A stretch of DNA of 30,812 nucleotides. It comes from a virus. Each line of letters begins with the position of its first letter. The first letter of the stretch is position 1. Both the position numbers and the translations under genes were made by a program. This document shows positions 9,536 through 29,284 of the stretch, piece after piece. The stretch covers positions 1 through 30,812 of IMG/VR virus record IMGVR_UViG_3300046798_000187; one strand, written 5' to 3'. The notes under the pieces are model-generated. The model had not been told where the DNA came from and did no database searches. It saw only the letters and a list, made by a program, of their open reading frames with translations.

Positions 9536-9880
9536 ATGAAGAAAGCCGCCGCCCTCCTTCTGTCCGTCTGCGCCTTCGCCGTTTCGGCGTTGGCGCAGTC
9601 CACCACCACCCAGCAGAACGAGGTGCTGGTGCTGACGACGTCCACGCGCGTGGACGTGGGCATCGAGCAACGCAAGGGCATCGAGGTGCAGAACCTCGGG
9701 CCGGGCGCCATTTTCTGCAAGGTGTCCAACTCCACGCCCACGGCGGTGCTCAACAAGGCGCGGCGCCTCGCCACCAACGAGTCCTGGGCCATCGACTTGC
9801 CTCCGGGCTACCGCATTTCGTGCATCGCCTCCGCCAACCAAGTGACGGGGGCGGCCACCATCGTCACCGAGGTGCGGTAA
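9536..9880 (+). CDS. Decoration-like protein with a Sec signal peptide
   Basis: Encodes 114 residues. The N-terminus is a textbook signal peptide: Lys2-Lys3, a hydrophobic core from residue 4 to about 16, and an Ala-x-Ala site (SALA, residues 17-20) before Gln21. There is no lipobox. The mature part (about 94 residues) is beta-rich and resembles small phage decoration or fibre-base proteins (GIEVQNLGPGAIFCKVS, then a Pro-Gly turn and IVTEVR end). Those relatives normally lack a signal peptide. Two Cys remain in the mature part and could form a disulfide. The next gene starts immediately after its stop. Confidence 0.65.
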   Translation: MKKAAALLLSVCAFAVSALAQSTTTQQNEVLVLTTSTRVDVGIEQRKGIEVQNLGPGAIFCKVSNSTPTAVLNKARRLATNESWAIDLPPGYRISCIASANQVTGAATIVTEVR

Positions 9881-11173
9881 ATGCGGCGATTCCTGGTTGG
9901 CGTGCGCGCGTTCCTGGACCGGGCCATTCTGCTCATGGTCGGGTTCACGGCCGTGCTCGCGAGCGCACAGGCGCTCTCCAGGGGCATCCGCAGCGGAGGG
10001 TTGAGCCCAGAGCGTTTTCCCGGGAGCGGGACGAGCTCGGCGGCGAGCGACACGTCCCTTCTTCGTCTCCTTCCCAGCATCTCCGTGTCGGATGAGTGCG
10101 CCGGCGCCGCAATTTTCGGCACACGGGGCGAGCCGCTCAGCTTGACGCGCAGCTCGTCCGCCTACTGCACGAAGAGCGATGGGACGCTGGTCCTGCGAAC
10201 AGATGACCAGCCCCGGCTGGTGCTTGCCGGGGTGATGCGAGAGGGGGCATCGACAAATCAGGTGATTCGCTCGCAGGAGCTTGAAAACGCATTCTGGACC
10301 AGTCTGAACACGGTCACCATCACCGCCAACTATGCCGCGGCGCCCGACGGCACGACCACGGCCGACCGGGTGCAGCTCGGGAGCGGCGCGGCCACGGCAC
10401 GCTACCAGGCAGTCGCCGGGGTCTACGAGTCTCAGACGCACACGGTGTCCTGCTACGTGCGAGCCACCGCCGGAGCCCAGACCTTCCGCCTGCTGCTCAC
10501 GCACGGAGGGGTGACCAACTACTTCAGCCCGGAAAAGACGGCTACCGCGACATGGCAGCGCTTCATCTTTACGCAGGCGTTTGGTGCCACGGTCGGCACG
10601 AGCGCCCTTGTTGGCGTTCACAACGACGTTGCGCAGACGGCCGCTGACTTGGTTGTCTGGGGTTGTCAGCTCGAGAAGAACCAGAGCCACGCCTCCAGCT
10701 ACATCACCACCCTCGGCACGACGACAGCGCGAGTCGGCGAAACAACGACGATGCCAACCCCCGCGGCCATCAGCCGGACGGAGGGGTGCACTCGCGTCAC
10801 CTATACGGCTGGGTTTGACGGCTTCATCGCAGGGACGGATTACATCCTCTGGCTTGCCGCGACCGACGGGTTCCGCGTGCCCTATCTCCAATCAACCAGC
10901 GTCAGCACCTACGACGGGGTTCATGTTGTCGGCACGACGAAGACAATCGTTGCCAACGAAACCTTCGACATCCTCACCACCTGGACCGCCATCGGGAACC
11001 AACTTCGCGTCAAGCCCGGAGGCGTCACGGCCGCGACGTCCGCCTTCACGACGATGGGCGCCGCCGGAGCAAGCATGCAGCTGCTCAACATCTCCGGCAG
11101 CGGAGCCTGGCCGGCCTATTTGCGGAACGTCATCATCGGGGCCGCGCCGACGGACTGCGGGGTTGACCCATGA
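9881..11173 (+). CDS. Exported tail-fibre/spike-like protein with a lectin-like domain
   Basis: Encodes 430 residues. Residues 1-32 form a signal peptide or membrane anchor (basic start, hydrophobic ILLMVGFTAVLAS, then AQA). Residues about 125-280 match the pattern of a carbohydrate-binding-like domain common in phage tail proteins: an SQELENAFW motif, then APDGTTTADRVQ, ending with the typical VWGCQLEKNQ and SYITT. The remaining 150 residues look like a second jelly-roll-like domain. Six Cys are present. It overlaps the next gene by ATGA. The binding target is unknown; export of such a protein is unexpected for a virion part. Confidence 0.65.
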   Translation: MRRFLVGVRAFLDRAILLMVGFTAVLASAQALSRGIRSGGLSPERFPGSGTSSAASDTSLLRLLPSISVSDECAGAAIFGTRGEPLSLTRSSSAYCTKSDGTLVLRTDDQPRLVLAGVMREGASTNQVIRSQELENAFWTSLNTVTITANYAAAPDGTTTADRVQLGSGAATARYQAVAGVYESQTHTVSCYVRATAGAQTFRLLLTHGGVTNYFSPEKTATATWQRFIFTQAFGATVGTSALVGVHNDVAQTAADLVVWGCQLEKNQSHASSYITTLGTTTARVGETTTMPTPAAISRTEGCTRVTYTAGFDGFIAGTDYILWLAATDGFRVPYLQSTSVSTYDGVHVVGTTKTIVANETFDILTTWTAIGNQLRVKPGGVTAATSAFTTMGAAGASMQLLNISGSGAWPAYLRNVIIGAAPTDCGVDP

Positions 11174-11781
11174 GTCGTCTGCGCAGCCTATTCATCGTCA
11201 TTGGAGTGACGGCCGGCGGGCTGCTCCTGCTCATGCTCGCTCCGGACGCCACTCCCGCGGACGCACTGGATGCTGGCCTGTTGGACGTTTCGACGCCCGC
11301 CCGAGTGGAGTGCCGCTTCTACGTCCATCCGGACTGCCGAAACATCACGCTGCCGGATGCACCTTTGCCGGCGTACATGACGGCCCAAGTCCGGGCACGC
11401 TTCATTGACGGAGGTTTCGACGGCGACGGCGGCTCCACTCTCGTCCTCGCCGACATGCCCAATAGGCCGGATGGTGGCTTCTGCATCATCCCGGTCGGCA
11501 GCATTGCTGAGGCATGCACGGTGCTGGAGGTTGGCTCCTGTAGCCCGCTCGCCGTGTGTAGCTACGAGTACCCCACTCAAGGCCTGGAGGCGGGAGCCTG
11601 CTACCGCCCGGACGCCGGACGGTGTCGCATCGCCCAGTCGGACGGCGGCTTCATCGATGCGCCCATGGGCGTCACGCTGGCTCCCAACTCCTGGGTGGGG
11701 CCCGGCTGCTTCCGGAAGTACCCGGGGCCCGTCGTCTTCGCCGAAGGGGACGAGAGCTGGCCGGAGGAGTGCCCCCAATGA
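11170..11781 (+). CDS. Cys-rich exported protein of unknown function
   Basis: Encodes 203 residues. Residues 3-24 are a basic start plus a long hydrophobic helix (LFIVIGVTAGGLLLLMLAP), a signal peptide or anchor. The remainder has ten Cys, an even number spread over the chain, and Asp/Gly-rich turns such as FIDGGFDGDGG and RPDAGRC. Both features suit a disulfide-rich periplasmic or surface protein, and the Asp/Gly style resembles myxobacterial surface proteins. No phage family recognised. It is coupled by ATGA overlaps at both ends to tail-spike-like genes, so it may be a chaperone, partner or acquired host gene. Confidence 0.65.
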   Translation: MSRLRSLFIVIGVTAGGLLLLMLAPDATPADALDAGLLDVSTPARVECRFYVHPDCRNITLPDAPLPAYMTAQVRARFIDGGFDGDGGSTLVLADMPNRPDGGFCIIPVGSIAEACTVLEVGSCSPLAVCSYEYPTQGLEAGACYRPDAGRCRIAQSDGGFIDAPMGVTLAPNSWVGPGCFRKYPGPVVFAEGDESWPEECPQ

Positions 11782-12224
11782 CAAGTCGAACGGCCGTCCT
11801 TCTTGCGGTGTTTGCCCTTGCGTCTTCCGCGCTGGGGCAGACGTTCTCCGTCACCACCACGCACAACCTCACCGGCTCGCCTCCAACGCTATCAACGGAC
11901 GGGGCATCCATTGATGCGGCGGATGGATTCAACGTCACCGTCTCGGCCAACTCCGGACAGACAATTACCGGCGGCTCACTGCTCTGCTACTTCTATGGCG
12001 CGGTGTCGTCCTCCGGCAGCGGCTCTCCTCCGACGCGCCGTTGGATGCGGTGTCCGGCGGTGCTGGACTTCACCCCCGGCACATCCGTCCGCGATGCGCC
12101 GAGCGGCGACTATCAGACTCCCGTGGGGTGGGGCCGCATCGCGTACATCCCCAGCGCCGTCACCGTCTCAGGCGGCAGCACCGTTACCGTCACAATTGCC
12201 GTGCGCAAGGGGGCGGACAAATGA
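11778..12224 (+). CDS. Small beta-rich protein with a Sec signal peptide
   Basis: Encodes 148 residues. The signal peptide is clear: Arg4, hydrophobic core TAVLLAVFALA, and a likely cleavage at SALG before Gln21. The mature part is rich in Ser, Thr and Gly with alternating strands (FNVTVSANSGQTITGGSLL, then VTVSGGSTVTVTIAVRKG), like small beta-sandwich phage attachment proteins. Two Cys remain. It overlaps its neighbours by ATGA at both ends, so it is made with the beta-helix protein that follows. Confidence 0.62.
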   Translation: MTSRTAVLLAVFALASSALGQTFSVTTTHNLTGSPPTLSTDGASIDAADGFNVTVSANSGQTITGGSLLCYFYGAVSSSGSGSPPTRRWMRCPAVLDFTPGTSVRDAPSGDYQTPVGWGRIAYIPSAVTVSGGSTVTVTIAVRKGADK

Positions 12225-13675
12225 CGCCCTCCGTCGCCCTGCTGTCTCTGGTGCTGAGTCAGGCACTGCCGCCCTTCAACGGAGTCAGCCGGGGGGAGTG
12301 GGCCACCACGGGCGCGCTCGGCCTCTTCGTGGAAACCACCGGCAACGACGGAAGCGACTGTCGGTCCGTTGGGGCGCCATGCGCGACGCTTCAGGGCGCC
12401 TTCGACAAAATTCCGGAGAACGTCTTTCACGGCGTCACCATCACCGCGGGGCTTGGCAACTTCTCGGGCGCGGTACTCTCAGGGAAGGTCATCCACACGC
12501 GCTCCGGCGGCGGTGCGTGGATTAACTTCCAGGGCACACTGAAGACGGCCACCGTGGCCACAGGCACCGCCAGCGGGACTCTTACTGGCTACGTGGCCGG
12601 CGCGGCCGCAACGCACACCACGTACACGGACAGCACGCAGAGCTGGACGGCGAATGACTTGCGCGGGAAGTGGGTCCAAATAACCGGGGGCACCGGCGTC
12701 AGCGCAACGGCCATCTACGTCATCGCCTCCAACACGGCGACTGTCCTCACGCTCGCCGGCACCGGCACCGCGGCCATCGGCTCCACGTACACGATTGTGG
12801 ACTCCGGGACTGTCATCACCGCATTGACGGCCGCCGAGGCGGGCGGCCCCTTCGGCATTTCCAATGATACCGGCGCCGGCATCCGCATCATCGGCAACGA
12901 GAGCTACGGCAACTTCGGCAACAACATCGCCGTCTCCAAACTCTCCTGCGCCATGTCTGCCTCTTCTGGGCAGTGCGTCCAGGTGGACGGCCCCACGCGC
13001 GCGTACGTGCGGTGGCTGTCTGCCGCGGGCGCCGGGCAGTTCGCCATCGGCGTTCGCTTCACCAACCAGGGCGGGGGCTTCGTCAACAACTCCAGTTTCG
13101 CGCTCTCCGGCTCCGGCTCCCTCGGCGTGAGCATGGGGAACATTGCGGACCAGTCCGGAGGGGTGCGCATCTCCAACTCCCTCTTCAACGGAGGGGCCGG
13201 CGGCGTCCAGATGCAGGCGACGGGCGTCACTATTTCTGGCTCCAAGTTTTTCGCGCAAACCGCGCAGGCCATCGTGGGCGCACAGCTGGGCACCGGAGGC
13301 ACACAGCTCTCCAACAACCGAATTGACTGCAACAGCGTGGGCGGCGCGAGAGGCATATCTGTCACCACGCACGCAGACTTGGGCGGCGCCTACGTGGTGC
13401 CAATTGGATTGTCCTCCTCGGACATCAGCAACTGCATGGACGCGGTGCGGCTCGCGTACCCAGGTGCGCACGGCATGTTTAAGGCCGTCAGTGGAACCGG
13501 AAACACTGTGGCCTTCAACGTGAGCTATGGGGCCAACTGCCTCGTGGATGCCACCAGCACCATTACTGGCGCCACGGAAATTAATCTCGATGGGGCCGGC
13601 TCAACCATCGCCGCGATGCGCGCCGCCGTACCAAGACTCGTCACCAACACCTACGGGTCCATCGTTTATGAGTAG
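12221..13675 (+). CDS. Beta-helix tail-spike-like protein with a signal-peptide-like N-terminus
   Basis: Encodes 484 residues. It begins with a hydrophobic segment SVALLSLVLSQALPP (residues 4-18) that looks like a short signal peptide, though it lacks a basic n-region. Residues about 35-100 start a pectate-lyase-like region (GNDGSDCRSVGAPCATLQGA). Residues about 105-195 hold an inserted module common in phage fibres (SWTANDLRGKWVQITGG ... GSTYTIVDSG). Residues 220-430 show repeated short strands with Asn/Gly turns (ISNSLFNGGAGGVQM, VTISGSKFF), typical of a right-handed beta helix that binds or cleaves polysaccharide. Catalytic residues cannot be named. Last gene of the exported cassette. Confidence 0.68.
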   Translation: MTPSVALLSLVLSQALPPFNGVSRGEWATTGALGLFVETTGNDGSDCRSVGAPCATLQGAFDKIPENVFHGVTITAGLGNFSGAVLSGKVIHTRSGGGAWINFQGTLKTATVATGTASGTLTGYVAGAAATHTTYTDSTQSWTANDLRGKWVQITGGTGVSATAIYVIASNTATVLTLAGTGTAAIGSTYTIVDSGTVITALTAAEAGGPFGISNDTGAGIRIIGNESYGNFGNNIAVSKLSCAMSASSGQCVQVDGPTRAYVRWLSAAGAGQFAIGVRFTNQGGGFVNNSSFALSGSGSLGVSMGNIADQSGGVRISNSLFNGGAGGVQMQATGVTISGSKFFAQTAQAIVGAQLGTGGTQLSNNRIDCNSVGGARGISVTTHADLGGAYVVPIGLSSSDISNCMDAVRLAYPGAHGMFKAVSGTGNTVAFNVSYGANCLVDATSTITGATEINLDGAGSTIAAMRAAVPRLVTNTYGSIVYE

Positions 13676-13693: not shown

Positions 13694-14203
13694 ATGAGCA
13701 TCCTCATCAACGTAGGCGGCGTGAATTACCCCTACCCGTCCTCGGGTGAGTCGGACACTGCCCAGAAGCAAATCGCCTTCGCCCAGGCCGTTGCGGCACA
13801 GGCCAACAAGGGCTCCTCCATGGTGGCCTTTTCGGCCGTCACGGCGCCGGCCAGCCCCGTCACCACCCCCGTCTTCCTGAAGCCGCTTGGCAGCAATGCC
13901 ACCGCCACTTCCGTTGAGGTGAAGTTCCGCGTCCCGTTCGCGTGCGTCATCTCCAAGCTGTACATCGGCGCGTCCGGAGGCCCCGTCGGCGACTCCCTCA
14001 CCCTGACGCTTCGAAGAAACGGGGTGAACACGGCACTGACGTGCGTGCTCCCAGTAGCAACCACGCAGGCCAGCGACCTCACCCACTCCGTAACCTTCGC
14101 AGCAGGAGACGAGATGTCCTTCTCCTGCGTGGCCGGCGCCCTCATCTCAGCGGGCGCCCCGAATGTGTGGGCAACCATGAAAATGACCGAGGTGTACCTA
14201 TGA
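13694..14203 (+). CDS. Phage fibre or appendage-like protein
   Basis: Encodes 169 residues and has no signal peptide. The N-terminus SILINVGGVNYPYPSSGESD followed by a helix full of Ala/Gln is a pattern seen at the anchoring end of phage fibre proteins. The rest is a beta-rich domain (KFRVPFACVISKLYIGASGG, then LTLTLRRNG, then EMSFSCVAG), like a small jelly roll. It starts 18 bases after the exported cassette ends and overlaps the next gene by ATGA. Role inferred from pattern and context only. Confidence 0.6.
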   Translation: MSILINVGGVNYPYPSSGESDTAQKQIAFAQAVAAQANKGSSMVAFSAVTAPASPVTTPVFLKPLGSNATATSVEVKFRVPFACVISKLYIGASGGPVGDSLTLTLRRNGVNTALTCVLPVATTQASDLTHSVTFAAGDEMSFSCVAGALISAGAPNVWATMKMTEVYL

Positions 14204-18526: not shown

Positions 18527-20071
18527 ATGGCCTACGTCCTGCCGACAGAAGATGAGGATGAGAAGGCCCGCCAGGAGGCCGCTGGCTCCGCGGGGCCTGC
18601 TGCGTCCGCCGCACCGGCTATTTCCGGCGGCGGAGCCCCCGCGCACCCGATGGGGGGCGCCGGAGCCTCTGGCCGGCCAGCGAAGCCCTCCACCAACTTC
18701 GTCAGCTTTGACCGCGTGCTTGCGGCCAACAAGGACGCAGCCACGGGACTTGCCGCCAGCATGGCGAAGCCCATCGAGGCCGCCGGCCAGCAGTCCAAGC
18801 AGAGCGTAGCTGGGGCGTCCAACGCGTTCGCCAACAAGGTGCAGGCGGGCCTTCCAGCGGGAATGCAGTCCACGCCCTTCCAGGGCAAGCCAGCGGCGAC
18901 TCCTCAGCCCACAGGAAAGCCGGCGGCTCCCTTCGCCTCGCTTTCTGCGCAGCAGGTGCCCAACTTCACCTCGCCCACGCAGAGCAAGCCCGCATCCCCC
19001 ACCAACACCTCCGTCCAAAGCCAAGGCACAGTCAGCGGCACAACCCTGACGCCGGAGCAGGCCAAGGCCCAGGCGGAATGGAAGTACGCCGGCCCCAACT
19101 CCATGGACGAGGACGCCGGCTGGGGAGACATCCTCTCCAAGGCAGGGGAGGCGCAGCGCGACGTCGCTCTCACCGGCAACCGCAACGAGGCGGGAGAGCT
19201 GCAGGGCAACGCGGGACTCCAGGCGATGCTTCAGCAGCAGGCGGGCGGCTCCTACACGCAGGGCCAGTCGAAAATGGATGCCGGGCTTATTGGCTCCGCC
19301 GGCCGCCCCAAGTGGGACAGCCTCAACGAGGAGTACGGAGACCTTGTGGGTGGCGCGAAGGCCGCCAATGAAGCTTCGAAGGGTGTGGCTGAAGCTGCGC
19401 GCGGCAACGTGGCGACGCAGGCGGAGGGTGCCAAGGCGGCGCTCGCGAAGTGGGATGCCGACGCGAAGCAGGCGGAGGCGGACGCCGAGGCGAGGCGCCT
19501 GCGGGCCGAGCAGGAAACGGCGGCGGCAGCGAACAAGAAGAAGGACTTGATGCTCGGCCAGGGCGAGGGCAAGGCGCAGGACTGGAAGACGTACAACACC
19601 ACCAACACCTTCGAAAACACCCTGGCGGACATCGGCGAGGCGCTGGACCCCGTCAACTGGTTCGTCAAAGCCGGCGGCGGCGCGTCTCACCACGGCAAGT
19701 TGCGTGAGGCGATGGACGACCAAATCAACAAGGCCGGCGGCGAGGTCAACTCGAACAAAATCAACTGGGGCTGGTCCGGCCAGTTCGCGGGGGTACCGGA
19801 AAACGTGAAGGCCGGCGTCTACGACTCCCTCACTGCGGCCGAGCTGCACGCCCTGGAGCGAATGAGCGACGGCGACATGCGGAAATTCGTCAACGAGCGC
19901 ATCGGGGTGCTTGGGAAGGAGGCCGCGCAGACGCTTGCGGCACCTGAGTTCGCCGGAATGAGTGACCCGGAAATTTTCGGCGCGCTCACCATCAAGTACG
20001 GCATCGACCCATTCAAAGCCACCAACCTTTTCGAGATGCGCAAGGCAGCGAAGCGCATGGGCATCATCTAG
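18527..20071 (+). CDS. Internal virion/ejection protein candidate 1
   Basis: Encodes 514 residues. The first 180 are Ala/Pro/Ser/Gly-rich and probably disordered. Residues 190-350 are helix-rich, including a long Ala/Glu/Lys helix (about 280-340) suited to a coiled coil. The C-terminal 160 residues look globular and end in a compact helical region. Its place after the tail genes, the low-complexity start and the three similar genes that follow point to a protein stored in the capsid and injected with DNA. No enzyme motif is visible. Confidence 0.55.
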   Translation: MAYVLPTEDEDEKARQEAAGSAGPAASAAPAISGGGAPAHPMGGAGASGRPAKPSTNFVSFDRVLAANKDAATGLAASMAKPIEAAGQQSKQSVAGASNAFANKVQAGLPAGMQSTPFQGKPAATPQPTGKPAAPFASLSAQQVPNFTSPTQSKPASPTNTSVQSQGTVSGTTLTPEQAKAQAEWKYAGPNSMDEDAGWGDILSKAGEAQRDVALTGNRNEAGELQGNAGLQAMLQQQAGGSYTQGQSKMDAGLIGSAGRPKWDSLNEEYGDLVGGAKAANEASKGVAEAARGNVATQAEGAKAALAKWDADAKQAEADAEARRLRAEQETAAAANKKKDLMLGQGEGKAQDWKTYNTTNTFENTLADIGEALDPVNWFVKAGGGASHHGKLREAMDDQINKAGGEVNSNKINWGWSGQFAGVPENVKAGVYDSLTAAELHALERMSDGDMRKFVNERIGVLGKEAAQTLAAPEFAGMSDPEIFGALTIKYGIDPFKATNLFEMRKAAKRMGII

Positions 20072-20080
20072 GAGCACGCC

Positions 20081-20887
20081 ATGTGGGGACTGCTTGCACA
20101 GCTTGGGTTGGGGATGCTTGGGGAGCAGGCCGCTAAGGCCGACAAGGCGACTCAGCAGCGCATTATGGAACGGATGGTGGCCGAGTTCGACGGCATCAAC
20201 CTTCCGGACGTGAAGTCCATTGTCGCCGAGGAGCTGGGGCCTCAGGCGATGGAAGGCGTCTTCGCCGACGAAGAGTTGAAGGGCCTGGAGCGCGAGAGCC
20301 TGGGCGAGATGATGAAGCTGGGCCGCTCCGGTGGCCTCACTCTCGAAGACAAGGCGAACCTCAACACCATTCGCGGCCAGACGGACCGCAGTACTCACGC
20401 CGCGAACGAGAGAATCCGCGAGCAGATGGCGGCGCGCGGCCAGTCCGGCGGAGGCGCGGAGTTGGCAATGCGCCTCTCTGCCAACCAGGGCGCGGCGCAG
20501 CGTCTCGGTGACGAAGGCCTGCAACTCGCCGGCATGGCCCAGCGACGTGCACGCGACGCGATGCTTGAAGGAGGGCGGATGGCCGGCCAGATGGGCCAGC
20601 GCGACTTCTCCGAGAAGGCTCGCCGGGCGGAGGCCGCGGACAAGCGCGCGGCCTACAACACTGCGGCAAGGGAGAGGGCCAACCTCTTCAACGCGAACGC
20701 GCCACAGCAGGACTTCGAAAACAGGTTCCGCAAGGCTGGCGGCGTGTCGGGAGCCTTGGGCAACCAGGCTGGCTTCTACGGAGACCAGGCCAACTCCACC
20801 CGCCAGCTTTACGCCGGCATGGGCAAGGCCGCCTACGACGCCTTCAAGCCAGACGGCACCAAGAAGGACGATGAGGACGAGGGCTAA
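20081..20887 (+). CDS. Internal virion/ejection protein candidate 2
   Basis: Encodes 268 residues. It starts with an Ala/Gly/Leu helix (LLAQLGLGMLGEQAAKADKA). The centre is nearly all helix, with GQSGGGAELAMRLSANQGAA and repeated Arg/Ala-rich segments, a composition I recognise from podovirus internal proteins. It ends with an acidic tail. It follows candidate 1 by 9 bases and is separated from candidate 3 by 2 bases, so the set is one operon. It probably forms part of the trans-envelope DNA channel. Confidence 0.6.
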   Translation: MWGLLAQLGLGMLGEQAAKADKATQQRIMERMVAEFDGINLPDVKSIVAEELGPQAMEGVFADEELKGLERESLGEMMKLGRSGGLTLEDKANLNTIRGQTDRSTHAANERIREQMAARGQSGGGAELAMRLSANQGAAQRLGDEGLQLAGMAQRRARDAMLEGGRMAGQMGQRDFSEKARRAEAADKRAAYNTAARERANLFNANAPQQDFENRFRKAGGVSGALGNQAGFYGDQANSTRQLYAGMGKAAYDAFKPDGTKKDDEDEG

Positions 20888-20889
20888 CC

Positions 20890-22212
20890 ATGGCGCGCAT
20901 CCCTGACTTGTTGAGCGGCTACGGCCCCGAAGACGAAGACGTCATCCCCGCTGGCCTTCTTGATGACGAGGAAGAGGAGGGGGCTGGCCCGGTGGCGCCA
21001 GCGGTGGGCGGCATTGCTCCGCCTCCTTCCAGTGCGCCGAAGTCGGCAGACGCTCTGCTTGACGAGGCGTTCGACTGGTCTCCTTGGCCCAAGGGGCAGA
21101 CGCCTCCACCGATGGTGCAGGCAGAGAAACCGAATGCGAAGACTCAGGGCCGCGACAGTGAGCTGCTCCGGGCGCAGCGAGACGACGCGCGCAGCAGAAA
21201 CCAGGGCCGAGCCTCCGACGCCCTCTATGCGGCCTTCTCGCGGCGTGGCCTCCAAAACACGGGCGGCGGCACGGACACGGCCGGCGAGCTGCTGAAGCGG
21301 CGCGCGCTGGAGCAAGGCGAGGCCGACAAGACGCGGAAGGCTGGCGAGCGCATGGCGGACAGGGCCGCCCTTGCGAAGGCGCTGGGCGTGGACGAGGCGC
21401 AGCTGTCGGGACTTTCTGACGAAGGGCTGTCGAAGGTGCTGGGCGTGAAGGTGGGCGAGAGGAAGGACGCGGCAACCGTTGCGGCGGCGGGAGCGCGCGC
21501 GGCGGCGGGGGTTGAGGCAGCCAAGGCGCGCGCAAAGGCGCAGCTTGATGAGGAGACTCGTAAGCGGCAAATGCAGTTGGACGACCGAAAGGAAGAGCGC
21601 ACGTACCGGGAGGGGCGGGACAAGGAGGCCAACGCGCGCGCGGACAAGGGGAAGGCGCTTGATACGGCCGAGGGGCTGCGGAAGGAATTCGTCAACAACC
21701 ACGTCACGAAGGCCACGCAGGAGGTGGCCGCTTCCTGGGACAAAATGCAGCGGGCCGCCAAAACTCCCTCGGCAGCCGGCGACATGGCCCTCATCTACGG
21801 CTTCATGAAGATGAACGACCCGGGCTCCACCGTCCGAGAGGGAGAATTCGCCTCGGCTCAGAATGCGGGCGGCGTGGATTCGCGCGTCATCAGCCTCTAC
21901 AACAGCGTTCTCAACGGCCAACGGTTGGCGCCGGAAATTCGCGCCGACTTCCTTGGGCAGGCGAAGAATATGTACGCGGCCCAGATGGGGCGCTTTGCGC
22001 CAGTCAGAAAGGCCTATGCATCGCTCGCGGAGAAGGCCGGAGTGGACCCCAATGACGTGGCCCTCGACCTCGGTTTCCCTGGAGGAGAGGGCGAAGCATC
22101 AGGAGCAACTGGACCCACTGAGCGCGACTCGGCTGCCGTGAAGTGGGCCAAGGAAAACCGGGATGACCCGCGGGCGGCCGCTGTCCTGAAGGCGAGTGGG
22201 GTTGGCCAATGA
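20890..22212 (+). CDS. Internal virion/ejection protein candidate 3
   Basis: Encodes 440 residues. Acidic, disordered N-terminus (a DDEEEEG stretch), then a long charged coiled coil (about residues 170-255). The region about 296-390 contains DMALIYGFMKMNDPGSTVRE followed by GEFASAQ and an NGQRLAPE segment. That pattern recurs in internal virion and DNA-transfer proteins of short-tailed phages. Its stop overlaps the next start (ATGA). A role in DNA ejection is the best reading. Confidence 0.66.
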   Translation: MARIPDLLSGYGPEDEDVIPAGLLDDEEEEGAGPVAPAVGGIAPPPSSAPKSADALLDEAFDWSPWPKGQTPPPMVQAEKPNAKTQGRDSELLRAQRDDARSRNQGRASDALYAAFSRRGLQNTGGGTDTAGELLKRRALEQGEADKTRKAGERMADRAALAKALGVDEAQLSGLSDEGLSKVLGVKVGERKDAATVAAAGARAAAGVEAAKARAKAQLDEETRKRQMQLDDRKEERTYREGRDKEANARADKGKALDTAEGLRKEFVNNHVTKATQEVAASWDKMQRAAKTPSAAGDMALIYGFMKMNDPGSTVREGEFASAQNAGGVDSRVISLYNSVLNGQRLAPEIRADFLGQAKNMYAAQMGRFAPVRKAYASLAEKAGVDPNDVALDLGFPGGEGEASGATGPTERDSAAVKWAKENRDDPRAAAVLKASGVGQ

Positions 22213-23996
22213 GTGAAGACTTTGACCCTGACGCCTACCTCGCGGAGAAGGCAAAGGAGAGCGAGAAGGCGGCTCCGTTTGACCCTGAGGCCTACCTCTT
22301 GGAGCAGGCCAAGGCGAACGCTCCGCGAGTCGGGCCTCGCGAAACCTTCACCAACAAGTTCATCTCCGCCGTTCCACTGGGGCGCCTAGCCACCAACGCG
22401 CTCAGCACGGGCGCACTCCAGGCCGCGAAGCTCATGGGTACGGGCGAGCCCGGGGCCACTCTTACGCCGCAGGCCAAGGCCGAGCTTGAGCAGATGGGCG
22501 AGACGGTAAGCCAGGAGAATGCAATCCCTGGCGTTTTGGATACCTACCGAGGGACGCGAGACCGCTTCGACGAGCGCACGGCGGCTGGCTCAGAGCAAAA
22601 CCCCTGGACGTCAGGAGCCGGAACCGTTGTCGGGACCGGCCTCTCCCTCCTCGCCCCTTTGCCCAAAGTGAAGGTTGGAGGCGGAGCCACGGCGGGAAGC
22701 CGCATTGCCTCGAACGCCGCGACAGGCGCTGCCTACGGGGCGCTCAATGCCGCCACCAACGGGAGGGCGGACCTCACCCAAGGAGACCTTCTCGGAACCC
22801 TCTCTGAAACACTCGGCGTCGAGGGCCTCCGTCGCGCAATCGAGCGCATGGGACAGCGAAAGCCCGGAGCGGCGGCGCTTGAGGTGCTGGGCGCCGGAGC
22901 CATCGGAGGAGGTCTTGCCGGTGGTGTGGTGGGCGCAGGCCTAGAGGGGCTAAACAAGATAGGCCTCATCCCGGCCCTGTCGGAGGCCCTGAGGAAACTC
23001 GCTCTAAACCAAGGCCGCAAGGTGCTCACCAACGGCGCGAATTCCGCGCGCGCCCCAGTGAGTGACGCCGCGGTGGAGGCGTCCATCCGGGCCAAAACCA
23101 TAAAACCCTTCGGCACAACCGAGGGCACTTTCACCCGGCTTGGCGACAAAACCGATGACCTGGGGGCCGAGTACGGGCGCGTCGTCCAGGAGTTGGAGGC
23201 CATCGGCGTAAAGGGAGAAGGCGCTCCGAAGATTGCGAACGAGCTTGTGGAGCGCGCCGCGAAGCTTGAGCCTCACACAATGAACACCGCACTGCCGGAG
23301 GAGTATCTGACGCAGGCGGCGGAGCTGCTGAAGAAGACGCCGCACCGGCCACTCCCTGGTCACGAGGGGCCGTCCGGTACGCTTGGGCTGAAGCAGTCGG
23401 AGAACCTAAAGAGTTCTCTGCAGCAGATGGCGAAGTACGGGCGCGTTGAGGAGACGCCGGTCAACGCCATCAGGCGGGATATCGCTTCCGTTCTTAGACG
23501 CTCCAACGAGGAGGCCATCGAGGCGGCAGCCAGGGCCAACCCGGCAGACGAGACGCTGCAGAGCCTCAGCGCGCAATTCATCCCCATCAAACAGAAGCTC
23601 GGCAACCTCTACGAGGCCGAGGCCGCAGCGGCCCGCGGCGCCGCCCGGGGCGCAGACCGCGCCACATTCAACCTCACCGACAAGATGCTGGCGGCAGCCG
23701 GGCTCGCGTCCGGCAACCCGCTCGCCACCATCGCCGCGCCTGTCGCCAACAACTTCTTTCGTAACCGCCTGCCATCGGCCGGGGCCTCGTACGGCCTGGA
23801 CATCTCTGACTTGCTGAAGGGTGCGCCGGCCTCCGCTGGAAGGACCGGGCGAGCAGTTGAGCTTCTGAATGATGCCGTCAGGGGGCCGCAGGCCGTCTCT
23901 CCCCAGCCTGCATTCGCAGGAGGGAAGCTCAGCGAGGAGGAGAAGGCGCAACTCAAGGCCTACGTGGAGCGCTTGTTCTCCAAAGCGGGCGGCTGA
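22209..23996 (+). CDS. Internal virion/ejection protein candidate 4
   Basis: Encodes 595 residues. It begins with two copies of a short motif, FDPDAYLAEKA (5-15) and FDPEAYLLEQA (24-34). Gly/Ala-rich hydrophobic stretches follow around residues 135-160 and 218-250 (VLGAGAIGGGLAGGVVGAGL), which could insert into a membrane, and the C-terminal half is helical. These features suit a membrane-penetrating ejection protein. Its last 37 bases overlap, tail to tail, a membrane-protein gene on the other strand. It closes the virion operon. Confidence 0.6.
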   Translation: MSEDFDPDAYLAEKAKESEKAAPFDPEAYLLEQAKANAPRVGPRETFTNKFISAVPLGRLATNALSTGALQAAKLMGTGEPGATLTPQAKAELEQMGETVSQENAIPGVLDTYRGTRDRFDERTAAGSEQNPWTSGAGTVVGTGLSLLAPLPKVKVGGGATAGSRIASNAATGAAYGALNAATNGRADLTQGDLLGTLSETLGVEGLRRAIERMGQRKPGAAALEVLGAGAIGGGLAGGVVGAGLEGLNKIGLIPALSEALRKLALNQGRKVLTNGANSARAPVSDAAVEASIRAKTIKPFGTTEGTFTRLGDKTDDLGAEYGRVVQELEAIGVKGEGAPKIANELVERAAKLEPHTMNTALPEEYLTQAAELLKKTPHRPLPGHEGPSGTLGLKQSENLKSSLQQMAKYGRVEETPVNAIRRDIASVLRRSNEEAIEAAARANPADETLQSLSAQFIPIKQKLGNLYEAEAAAARGAARGADRATFNLTDKMLAAAGLASGNPLATIAAPVANNFFRNRLPSAGASYGLDISDLLKGAPASAGRTGRAVELLNDAVRGPQAVSPQPAFAGGKLSEEEKAQLKAYVERLFSKAGG

Positions 23997-27360: not shown

Positions 27361-28104
27361 TCAGGCGGGCTTCTTCTGGCGGCGCTGCAACTCGGCCTCG
27401 ACGTCGCCCACATTCAAGAGAAGGGAGGCTCGCTGTGCGTCCGTCATCTCTTCGTCCCGCTTGGAGGCCGCAAGGTCCAACGCGCCGGAAAGCTGCGCGT
27501 CGGTGAGCGACGCGATGGTGGAGCCCTTGTTAGGCCCGAAGATGAGCCGCGAAGTACTGGCCTCACGTGCTTGCAACTTCTCCTTCACCTGAGATGTCTT
27601 CGAAGTCCGCGCACTAGCCTGCACAGGGACGGACCGCTGTCCGGAATTCTCGGGCACAAACCCCATCGCGCCGTTGCCGTCATCGTCCTCGTCTGCCGCG
27701 ACACCCACCAATGCCGCAAGCGAGTAGCGGCGCCCGTAGGTGATGACGCTCCCAACGGACTGGATGGTGCGCTGTGCGAGTGGGTAGAGGCAGCGGTCCT
27801 TCACCCATTCGCCAGAGGAGTGCACGAGCTGGGTGGTGATGATGACGCCAGCATTGTCCGTACGGACGCGCTGAAGTACGGCGAGGCCGTTGGCGGAGAG
27901 CGCCTCTCTGCAGGCGTCCCAGATGCTCGCGAGGTCCGCATACTTCGACTTGAAGTGCGGGTTCTCGCTGCCCTTCTTCGCGCCCCTCATGGCGCCCTGC
28001 GCCTTGGCGAGTGCGGAAGCCAGCGCCCCGAGGGTGGGTGACTCGTCGGCGTCCAACTGGATGGGGCGCGGCGGGGACTGGGTGGTTTCTATTTCGGTAG
28101 TCAT
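27361..28104 (-). CDS. erf: ERF-family single-strand annealing protein
   Basis: Encodes 247 residues. Family hallmarks are clear: LGALASALAKAQGAMRGAKK, then NPHFKSKYADLASIWDACRE, LVHSSGEWVKDR, SVGSVITYGRRYSLAALVGV and the acidic DEDDDGNG. ERF proteins anneal complementary single strands in phage recombination and genome circularisation. ATG 28102-28104 is preferred over a GTG three bases upstream because AGGAG is then five bases away. It starts inside the stop of the exonuclease gene (TGATG), so exonuclease and annealing protein are made together. Confidence 0.9.
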   Translation of the reverse strand: MTTEIETTQSPPRPIQLDADESPTLGALASALAKAQGAMRGAKKGSENPHFKSKYADLASIWDACREALSANGLAVLQRVRTDNAGVIITTQLVHSSGEWVKDRCLYPLAQRTIQSVGSVITYGRRYSLAALVGVAADEDDDGNGAMGFVPENSGQRSVPVQASARTSKTSQVKEKLQAREASTSRLIFGPNKGSTIASLTDAQLSGALDLAASKRDEEMTDAQRASLLLNVGDVEAELQRRQKKPA

Positions 28105-29018
28105 CACGTCTCCTGGAATTTGGGCAGAAAGCGCCGGTAGCCGGCGCCGATGGTGGTGTGCTTCCTGATGAGTTCATTCGGGGCGCCTGCCTCCATGGCC
28201 ACCGCCTCCCAGTCCGTCTTCGCGCGCCCCTTCACCAGTCGGTGCGTCACCTTCCACCCGTCGCCCTGGAGCCCATCCGCGTCCCCGATAAGAGCCACGA
28301 GGTGGTTGCGCGCCTCGGACTCAGCCTCCTCCGCCGCCTTCACGGCCTCGCGGGATACGCGCAGTTGCTCCACCCAGCGCATCGCCTCCGGCTTGGCCCG
28401 GAGAAGCTCACCGCCGTTGCGGGGGAATCGCTCCGCCAGGAAGCGAGCGCAGGACTCCGAGGCGTCTACCGCTGGCGGCGCGCCAGTGAGGACGTTGTCC
28501 ACCCAGAAGCGCTCAGCCGCCTCAAGCAGCATCGCCTGGAACTCGGAGTCCGGTCGGATGACGTAGCGGCGCATGTCGTCCACGCCGACGAGGGCGAAGA
28601 GGTGCGCCTGCGGCATCTTCGAAACCCAAAGGTACGTCTGTGCCTGGCAGAGGTGGTGCGTGGGCACCTCGTCTGTGCCTTGCTCTCCGTATTCGCCAGC
28701 GGCGAAGGGGCCCACTGACTTGAATTCGGCCACCTGCTCTTCGCCGGACACCACCAGAACGTCATCCAGCGACGCACGGAGAAATGGGGCGTGTCGGTAC
28801 TTGCGCGGGCCGACAAACTCCAGGCCGAACTCTTCGCGCGCCAGCTCTCGGATGACGGGCTCCATCAGCGTCCCGCGGCGCATGGCCTTCGTCTCTGGGT
28901 CCTCGCGTCCAAGAACGATGCGCGCGAAGACGTCGTGGGCCGTCTTGTAGGGGTTGAGCCCCACGAGGGCCGACACGTCAGAGCCACCAACCAGCTTCAA
29001 CTCTTCGGGACTCAGCAT
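28104..29018 (-). CDS. YqaJ-type phage exonuclease
   Basis: Encodes 304 residues. It belongs to the lambda-exonuclease-like family: GGSDVSALVGLNPYKT near the N-terminus, Glu53 in RGTLMEPVI, Asp85 in ASLDD, Glu98 and Lys100 in AEFKSV, and CQAQTYLWV around 124-132. It degrades one strand of double-stranded ends to give single strands for the ERF partner. ATG 29016-29018 is chosen because GGAGG is seven bases away; an overlapping GTG three bases upstream is the alternative. Coupled to genes on both sides. Confidence 0.9.
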   Translation of the reverse strand: MLSPEELKLVGGSDVSALVGLNPYKTAHDVFARIVLGREDPETKAMRRGTLMEPVIRELAREEFGLEFVGPRKYRHAPFLRASLDDVLVVSGEEQVAEFKSVGPFAAGEYGEQGTDEVPTHHLCQAQTYLWVSKMPQAHLFALVGVDDMRRYVIRPDSEFQAMLLEAAERFWVDNVLTGAPPAVDASESCARFLAERFPRNGGELLRAKPEAMRWVEQLRVSREAVKAAEEAESEARNHLVALIGDADGLQGDGWKVTHRLVKGRAKTDWEAVAMEAGAPNELIRKHTTIGAGYRRFLPKFQET

Positions 29019-29284
29019 CACACCACCTCCGGCAGTCGATGCGGGCTGGCGTCCAAGAAGTCCGGGTCCGGGTAGAAGCCCGCGTCACACTCACAAGGAC
29101 ACCGCACCTTCCCCTCGTCACAGCCGCGCCCTTCGCACTCGACATCACGCCTCCCGTCATCCGGGTGGAGCGCACGTGGCAGGTAGACGACGCTGATGGA
29201 GACTTCGCCGAGCCCGCCGCACCCGGAGCAGTCCTTCCAGCCCCCGTCGCAATCCTCAATACAGCGGATGAGGGGCGCTCTCAT
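29018..29284 (-). CDS. Cys-rich zinc-finger-like protein
   Basis: Encodes 88 residues, starting in the stop of the previous gene (ATGA). It contains C-x-x-C-G-G-L-G and C-E-G-R-G-C, followed by CPCEC, close in style to the DnaJ-type zinc-binding C-x-x-C-x-G-x-G repeats. About nine Cys are present, enough for two zinc sites. It precedes the exonuclease in the early operon. Such small proteins are common in phage early regions; its role here is unknown. Confidence 0.65.
   Translation of the reverse strand: MRAPLIRCIEDCDGGWKDCSGCGGLGEVSISVVYLPRALHPDDGRRDVECEGRGCDEGKVRCPCECDAGFYPDPDFLDASPHRLPEVV

Follow-up and report, generated by a model that had tools for sequence, protein, structure and literature searches.

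Export-type N-termini on a five-gene fibre cassette of an uncultured virus related to Myxococcus phage Mx8

Background

It is assumed that tailed phages fold and assemble their receptor-binding proteins inside the cytoplasm. Here we present an analysis of a cassette of five coupled genes (positions 9536-13675) in a 30,812-base IMG/VR record of a soil virus, IMGVR_UViG_3300046798_000187, which has 65% GC and the gene order of a short-tailed phage, and the whole of which is referred to below as the window. The cassette lies between a decoration gene and the next fibre-like gene (13694), and its products begin with export-type N-termini. Comparison of these sequences with those of related phages suggests that some phages may send host-binding spikes out through the bacterial membrane.

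Several described systems resemble this locus in part. In the head spike of the Rhodobacter capsulatus gene transfer agent (RcGTA; base Rcc01079, fibre Rcc01080), the gene for a small beta protein lies beside the fibre gene, as it does in the window, and the central domain of the fibre is common with that of the 9881 product, above the NF048003 cut-off. The NF048003 head-spike-fibre family is known from virions, and the RcGTA fibre docks via the peptide IALGLGLGL, no signal peptide having been described for it (PMC7296036). Bdellovibrio MATs, compared here by description, are phage-fibre-like adhesins in which a conserved beta domain of ~130 aa, with an S74 tip in some, stands right after a signal peptide, as here; they are, however, bacterial proteins for prey invasion (PMC10769870), whereas the window genes lie in phage structural operons. 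Similarly, Pantoea WceF is tailspike-like and exported by the twin-arginine translocation (Tat) pathway, but is a chromosomal biofilm-modifying enzyme and not phage-encoded (PMC7949094).

Exported phage lysis proteins are already known (PMC6116005). Like fOg44 Lys44, the signal-anchor-release (SAR) endolysins and the spanins, such late products travel via the host Sec machinery, but they are lysis proteins, not receptor-binding or spike proteins. A soil-virus GH5 endomannanase has been described as an auxiliary metabolic gene, with signal peptides and a fibre-cassette context unmentioned (PMC6786970); GH5 and GH26 enzymes also occur in cassettes related to the one studied here (loci L084 and L087). 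In the temperate Myxococcus phages Mx8 and Mx9 (PMC10281127), a signal precedes the fibre (Mx8 p64, Mx9 p14) and a homologue of 9536 adjoins it, as in the window, although the fibre family differs from the window's, and the Mx8 cassette follows internal virion proteins whereas that of the window lies between the decoration gene and a tail tube gene. In the open-access literature, subscription papers being outside the search, no account of export signals on fibre cassettes of phage virions was found, and on signal peptides of tail fibres or spikes we found only the bacterial proteins and the lysis proteins.

Results

Five coupled genes with export-type N-termini

The five genes lie on the plus strand and are tightly coupled: the TAA of gene 9536 abuts the ATG of 9881, ATGA overlaps join 9881 to 11170, 11170 to 11778 and 11778 to 12221, and a gap of 18 bases separates 12221 from 13694. 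These coordinates and junctions, proposed in an earlier sequence-only reading, were correct on checking. N-termini were scored with a rule that required a hydrophobic core of at least 9 residues, a net positive n-region and small residues at -3 and -1. The sequence-only reading had assigned signals or anchors to all five genes, and each of the five does begin with a hydrophobic segment of the export type at the position given; the rule passes the first four clearly, and the fifth is weak. Full Sec signal-peptide features are present in 9536, 9881 and 11778, while 11170 carries an anchor and 12221 is without a positive charge.

Gene 9536 (9536..9880; 114 aa) encodes a small protein, rich in beta structure and with two Cys (C61, C96), behind a predicted Sec signal peptide (9536..9595), cleaved at AVSALA/QS, where the slash marks the predicted site; its N-terminus reads MKKAAALLLSVCAFAVSALA/QS. 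Gene 9881 (9881..11173; 430 aa) has a predicted signal peptide (9881..9967; LASA/QA) of sequence MRRFLVGVRAFLDRAILLMVGFTAVLASA/QA, which includes RRFLV, compatible with a twin-arginine motif, and continues into a conserved mature N-terminus, a GTA-type head-spike-fibre or carbohydrate-binding domain (~residues 120-290) and a variable C-terminus. Gene 11170 (11170..11781; 203 aa) begins MSRLRSLFIVIGVTAGGLLLLMLAPD, with a hydrophobic anchor (11185..11241) and no convincing cleavage site, followed by a Cys-rich domain with 10 Cys. Gene 11778 (11778..12224; 148 aa) specifies another small beta-rich protein with two Cys, behind a predicted signal peptide (11778..11837; SSALG/QT) of sequence MTSRTAVLLAVFALASSALG/QT. 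Gene 12221 (12221..13675; 484 aa) encodes a spike-like, possibly beta-helical protein with 7 Cys; its putative signal peptide (12221..12265; LSQA/LP), read as MTPSVALLSLVLSQA/LP, has a hydrophobic core of 2.64 on the Kyte-Doolittle scale and no Lys or Arg.

No such N-terminus is found among 13 other structural and late genes scored in the window (0/13 pass), in agreement with the earlier claim that flanking structural genes lack such segments. In 38 control phage loci the rule passes 11 of 339 genes (3.2%) and no run of two or more, and at that rate a run of four in ~34 genes has a probability below 1e-4. Chance was rejected on this background. Cys residues, which the sequence-only reading had found raised and fitting an oxidising compartment, number 2 to 10 per cassette protein (1.35-4.9 per 100 aa), against 0-0.93 per 100 aa in the other structural genes of the window except 13694 (1.78). 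The argument for such a compartment is only partly upheld; as a general proof the Cys content was dropped, because the 9881 domain is no richer in Cys than its signal-less homologues.

The signals diverge while the sequence behind them is kept

A relative of the window phage, IMGVR_UViG_3300046791_000643, has a terminase large subunit (TerL) 88% identical to that of the window and encodes homologues of three cassette products (9536, 9881 and 11170), each with an export-type N-terminus; its 9881 homologue begins MMRWALPLLVLAQLANA/QALSK. In the signal region, identity between window and relative is 45% (9536), 31% (9881) and 41% (11170), and in the next 50 residues 88%, 66% and 80%, respectively; beyond the signal, the rest of 9536 is 93% identical. 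Within the N-terminal half of every shared gene, it is the signal that changes fastest, with core hydrophobicity kept, and all 10 Cys of 11170 are retained. The flanking signal-less genes behave in the opposite way, with N-termini (70-97% identical) that are more conserved than the remainder. By this sequence comparison, the pattern fits the evolution of signal peptides and is not the one expected of a segment that is random or that serves specific docking.

The relative is without 11778 and 12221, and its 11170 homologue directly overlaps its homologue of 13694. Window genes 11778 and 12221 (11778-13675) therefore look like a cleanly exchangeable two-gene module.

Cultured Myxococcus phages carry signal-bearing fibres

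In Mx8 and Mx9, both cultured phages of Myxococcus xanthus, no tail fibre was recognised besides p64 and p14, respectively; these start MRYLPSAAGLAVGVLLGVIISVSTPASA/TRNSVGTYTLPGG. Homologues of p64 in one Bradyrhizobium phage and one Stenotrophomonas phage begin at about the end of the signal (MPRNGSGTYLLPTG in the Stenotrophomonas phage). Homologues starting downstream of the hydrophobic segment had been named in advance as evidence against export, and these distant relatives do start there; yet Mx8 p64 has no in-frame ATG, GTG or TTG between residue 1 and residue 44, so that any product containing its fibre domain must also contain the signal, and export is not refuted on this ground. With no start codon to separate the signal from the conserved fibre domain, the signal of Mx8 p64 represents an addition rather than an error in start calling.

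An uncultured, Mx8-like phage (L022) carries the same fibre (gene 9645) with a different signal. Over the 50 residues that follow the signal, the Mx8 and L022 fibres are 76% identical, and beyond residue 128 their identity is 18-28%. Among the fibres compared, identity peaks directly behind the signal and declines to ~14-28% at the C-terminus. Behind the L022 fibre lie two more signal-bearing genes, one of them for a fibre of 810 residues with a GDSL hydrolase domain at its end; GDSL/SGNH hydrolase domains thus occur in the cassettes of both L022 and Mx8 (p67). Upstream of the fibres in the Bradyrhizobium and Stenotrophomonas phages, BLASTP showed no synteny of the internal virion gene with L022, and homology is therefore claimed for the fibre N-terminus only. 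Besides the short 13694 type, no other fibre genes were recognised in Mx8, Mx9 or the contig of the relative.

These observations also bear on the possibility that the cassette reflects contamination, mis-called starts or chance, that is, cytoplasmic genes with incidental hydrophobic N-termini. It is true that the contigs are uncultured and that GC-rich DNA is rich in start codons; however, the signals are kept in the relative, in two cultured phages and in many contigs. Mis-called starts were rejected, no alternative start lying ahead of the conserved part in Mx8 p64, L022 9645 or Mx8 p67, and the sole other start codon of 11778 falls inside its signal. We regard this explanation as largely refuted.

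Members of the 9536 family with a readable N-terminus all carry signal peptides (the window, the relative, Mx9, L015 and L017; L009 is also listed), and C61 and C96 are invariant across this small family. In Mx8 (L010:9901-10213), p65 is annotated on the minus strand, and the plus strand holds the 9536 homologue split over two frames. In Mx9 (L011:6467-7192) the homologue is intact at its start and fused to the SGNH-type hydrolase sequence of Mx8 p67, and in L017 (4241-4765) a homologue with a signal sits within the head-tail block of an unrelated Mu-like phage. A genome scan matched one contig of a metagenome-assembled genome, and no further member was found in 399 genomes of the phylum of that genome, a scan that excluded Myxococcota prophages.

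The 9881 product belongs to a head-spike-fibre family

The 9881 product is a member of NF048003 (GTA_spike_fiber), scoring 97 bits over residues 121-284 against a curated cut-off of 36. A profile of 9881 and its homologues matches RcGTA Rcc01080 (6tb9; E 5e-57) as well as tail fibre and baseplate proteins of phages. Residues 120-290 are modelled with confidence by AlphaFold as a beta-sandwich, and Foldseek matches for this sandwich are to phage baseplate proteins and carbohydrate-binding modules. As a single query, 9881 found no close relatives in IMG/VR. Among 38 other IMG/VR homologues of the domain with a readable start, a credible signal is present in one (L036); a 39th homologue, L023, is the relative itself and stands outside this count. 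Since only 1/38 is signal-bearing, the signal is an addition to the head-spike-fibre family.

Membership in this family raises an alternative without export, in which the hydrophobic N-termini are virion attachment peptides, like the IALGLGLGL by which the RcGTA head fibre is held on a pentameric base protein. The RcGTA fibre does dock through a hydrophobic N-terminal peptide (PMC7296036), and for 9881 alone this is a serious rival. However, the alternating Gly and Leu of the RcGTA peptide are not seen in 9881, which starts MRRFLVGVRAFLDRAILLMVGFTAVLASAQ; MKK- or MRR-type starts and AxA-type sites are present; the segments are poorly conserved and the next residues well conserved; and such segments also occur on unrelated domains, enzymes included. 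Furthermore, homologous fibres bear either Sec-like or twin-arginine-like versions, and 37 of the 38 other phage homologues of the 9881 domain are without a credible segment. For the cassette as a whole, we consider attachment peptides improbable.

Homology of 9536 to the RcGTA base protein was not detected: 9536 gave no profile match to an RcGTA-type pentameric jellyroll base protein, and its AlphaFold model is poor (pLDDT 55). Its product is a possible spike base or decoration protein, though the 'decoration' label given in the sequence-only reading found no family match. The 'beta-helix spike' label for 12221 fared no better, with no match to a pectate-lyase-like beta-helix tailspike family and no relatives in Pfam, PHROG, NCBIfam, PDB, IMG/VR (single query) or named phages. 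Gene 11170 has no homologues in named phages, and for 11778 the databases searched gave no relatives.

Runs of signal-bearing fibre genes in uncultured soil phages

Outside the Mx8 lineage, runs of fibre genes with signals occur on 26 contigs that have a second small beta family. Locus L087 has a run of five, among them genes for a GH5 enzyme, a fibre and a tailspike matched in PHROG (E 3e-27); L084-L086 have at least three signal-bearing genes in a run ending beside GH5+GH26; and L080 and L077 have three each, the L077 run adjoining a tail sheath gene. The signal rule passes 17 of the 71 genes that lie no more than two genes away from the small beta gene, and 1 of the 99 others on these contigs (p = 1e-6, which is optimistic because the contigs are related). 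Twin-arginine-like motifs occur in some head-spike-type fibres, namely RRTLL (L036), RRAFV (L069) and RRTAL (L079).

In two of these loci the fibre cassettes end in exported-type enzymes, GH5+GH26 in L084 (8330-12326) and GH5 in L087 (8290-11118). In L015 (8395-8550), a tandem in-frame repeat (RRRMRRSNSMWTSTIRVKKIRWKV) stands immediately ahead of a signal-bearing fibre start.

Other features of the window and its lineage

Upstream of the cassette lie the terminase (2232), portal (3871), scaffold (5986), capsid (7325) and decoration-like (8701) genes, and downstream the genes for tail tube A (14462), tail tube B (15381) and the internal virion proteins (18527-23996). The terminase matches PHROG, and the remaining structural names derive from gene order and size. 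The fibre-like gene 13694 (13694..14203, plus strand) has no signal peptide and three Cys; it is kept in the relative, there directly after the 11170 homologue, and its product is perhaps an adaptor that stays in the cytoplasm.

One internal virion protein (22209..23996, plus strand) is homologous to Mx8 p57 (BLASTP E 2e-30, 30% identity over 453 positions), so that the window phage is related to Mx8 in this part. In tblastn searches of phages with TerL and the major capsid protein, only a Silvanigrella phage matched, and homology to the terminase or capsid of the Mx8 lineage, the Myxoctovirus-like podoviruses, was not seen. From the lineage evidence, the host is probably a myxobacterium. An Erf-like annealing protein and a RecE-like exonuclease are paired on the minus strand (27364-29021), opposite to the structural genes.

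Discussion

Export of the cassette proteins is, on these comparisons, very probable. It is the simplest reading because unrelated domains share one kind of tag and homologous domains carry different tags. It is supported by the divergent yet hydrophobic signals of the relative and the signal-less fibres in phages of other hosts, by the occurrence of Sec-type and twin-arginine-like signals on homologous fibres, and by the same arrangement in Mx8, Mx9 and many soil phages. The export of spike-like proteins proposed in the sequence-only reading is thus upheld by comparison, and its three offered roles (blocking superinfection, degrading matrix and dressing virions) are not separable by sequence.

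We propose that the spike or fibre proteins and their helpers would cross the inner membrane late in infection via the host Sec machinery, with Tat export probably replacing Sec in some relatives. Signal peptides would be cleaved from the fibres and the small beta proteins, and the 11170 product would remain anchored. Meanwhile heads and tail hubs, encoded by signal-less genes, would be built in the cytoplasm; once the inner membrane is breached at lysis, mature fibres could attach to particles by their conserved mature N-termini, which would correspond to the virion-docking ends of ordinary fibres. Surplus fibres and enzymes would stay on the envelope, matrix and debris. To this overall explanation, an exported cassette whose fibres dock at lysis, we assign a probability of roughly 0.47. 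The docking step itself we place slightly short of even odds. More tentative is a general form of two-compartment assembly, in which capsid and tail hub are cytoplasmic, fibres and spikes are exported, processed and disulphide-bonded in the periplasm and joined only at lysis, and Sec or Tat signals have repeatedly been added to ordinary fibre genes.

The main competitor accepts export and dispenses with docking: the proteins would never be on virions, and would serve as late surface adhesins or enzymes that act on host and neighbouring cells at the level of envelope, matrix or capsule, with loosening of the matrix, masking of debris receptors or blocking of competing phages as their purpose. 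The exported GH5 (L087) and GH5+GH26 (L084) enzymes and the GDSL/SGNH domains (Mx8 p67, L022) of related cassettes speak for such free action, as does the membrane anchor of 11170, and bacteria use secreted tailspike-like proteins in this way (WceF, PMC7949094; Bdellovibrio MATs, PMC10769870). However, the genes lie inside a structural operon. Docking is favoured over free action because fibre conservation peaks directly after the signal and falls away C-terminally, as in tail fibres held on virions, and because no signal-less fibre besides the short 13694 type is recognised in Mx8, Mx9 or the relative. We judge exclusively free action to be possible, with odds clearly below even; docking and free action of the exported proteins may also coexist.

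A third possibility is lysogenic conversion, with the cassette a moron whose products are exported in lysogens and exclude superinfecting phages. Exported exclusion proteins are common in prophages. Mx8 and Mx9, moreover, are temperate (PMC10281127). Nevertheless, the cassette genes are coupled in a late structural operon and share a strand with the capsid and tail genes, and no integrase was recognised in the window. Separate lipoprotein-like genes of Mx8 on the other strand fit the role better, and we consider lysogenic conversion of the cassette quite unlikely. These genes are p58 and p59 (L010:5338-6292, minus strand; LFAC/GG and VTAC/GG), possible superinfection-exclusion genes.

Several points weigh against export followed by docking at lysis. 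We know of no precedent in tailed phages for fibres that meet particles after lysis. We found no virion proteomics for p64 in the Mx8 and Mx9 literature examined, and other fibre genes could have been missed, the genomes being divergent and weakly annotated. In related cassettes, the GH5/GH26 and SGNH enzymes appear to act freely. In the cassette itself, 11170 has an anchor rather than a cleaved signal, the Cys content of the 9881 carbohydrate-binding domain is ordinary for its family, and the signal of 12221 is the weakest of the five, having no Lys or Arg ahead of its core and being called by reading of the sequence. The signal counts come from a crude rule rather than SignalP, and from a crude gene caller.

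Recurrent export of fibres, if true, would change the view of phage assembly, host range and effects on plaques and biofilms, and would account for possible failures of fibre annotation in such phages. It would also account for the exit of soil-virus polysaccharide enzymes from the cell at lysis or earlier, and the exported GH5/GH26 ends of these cassettes bear on the reading of virus glycoside hydrolases as auxiliary metabolic genes. The question is directly testable in Mx8 and Mx9, long-used phages of Myxococcus xanthus.

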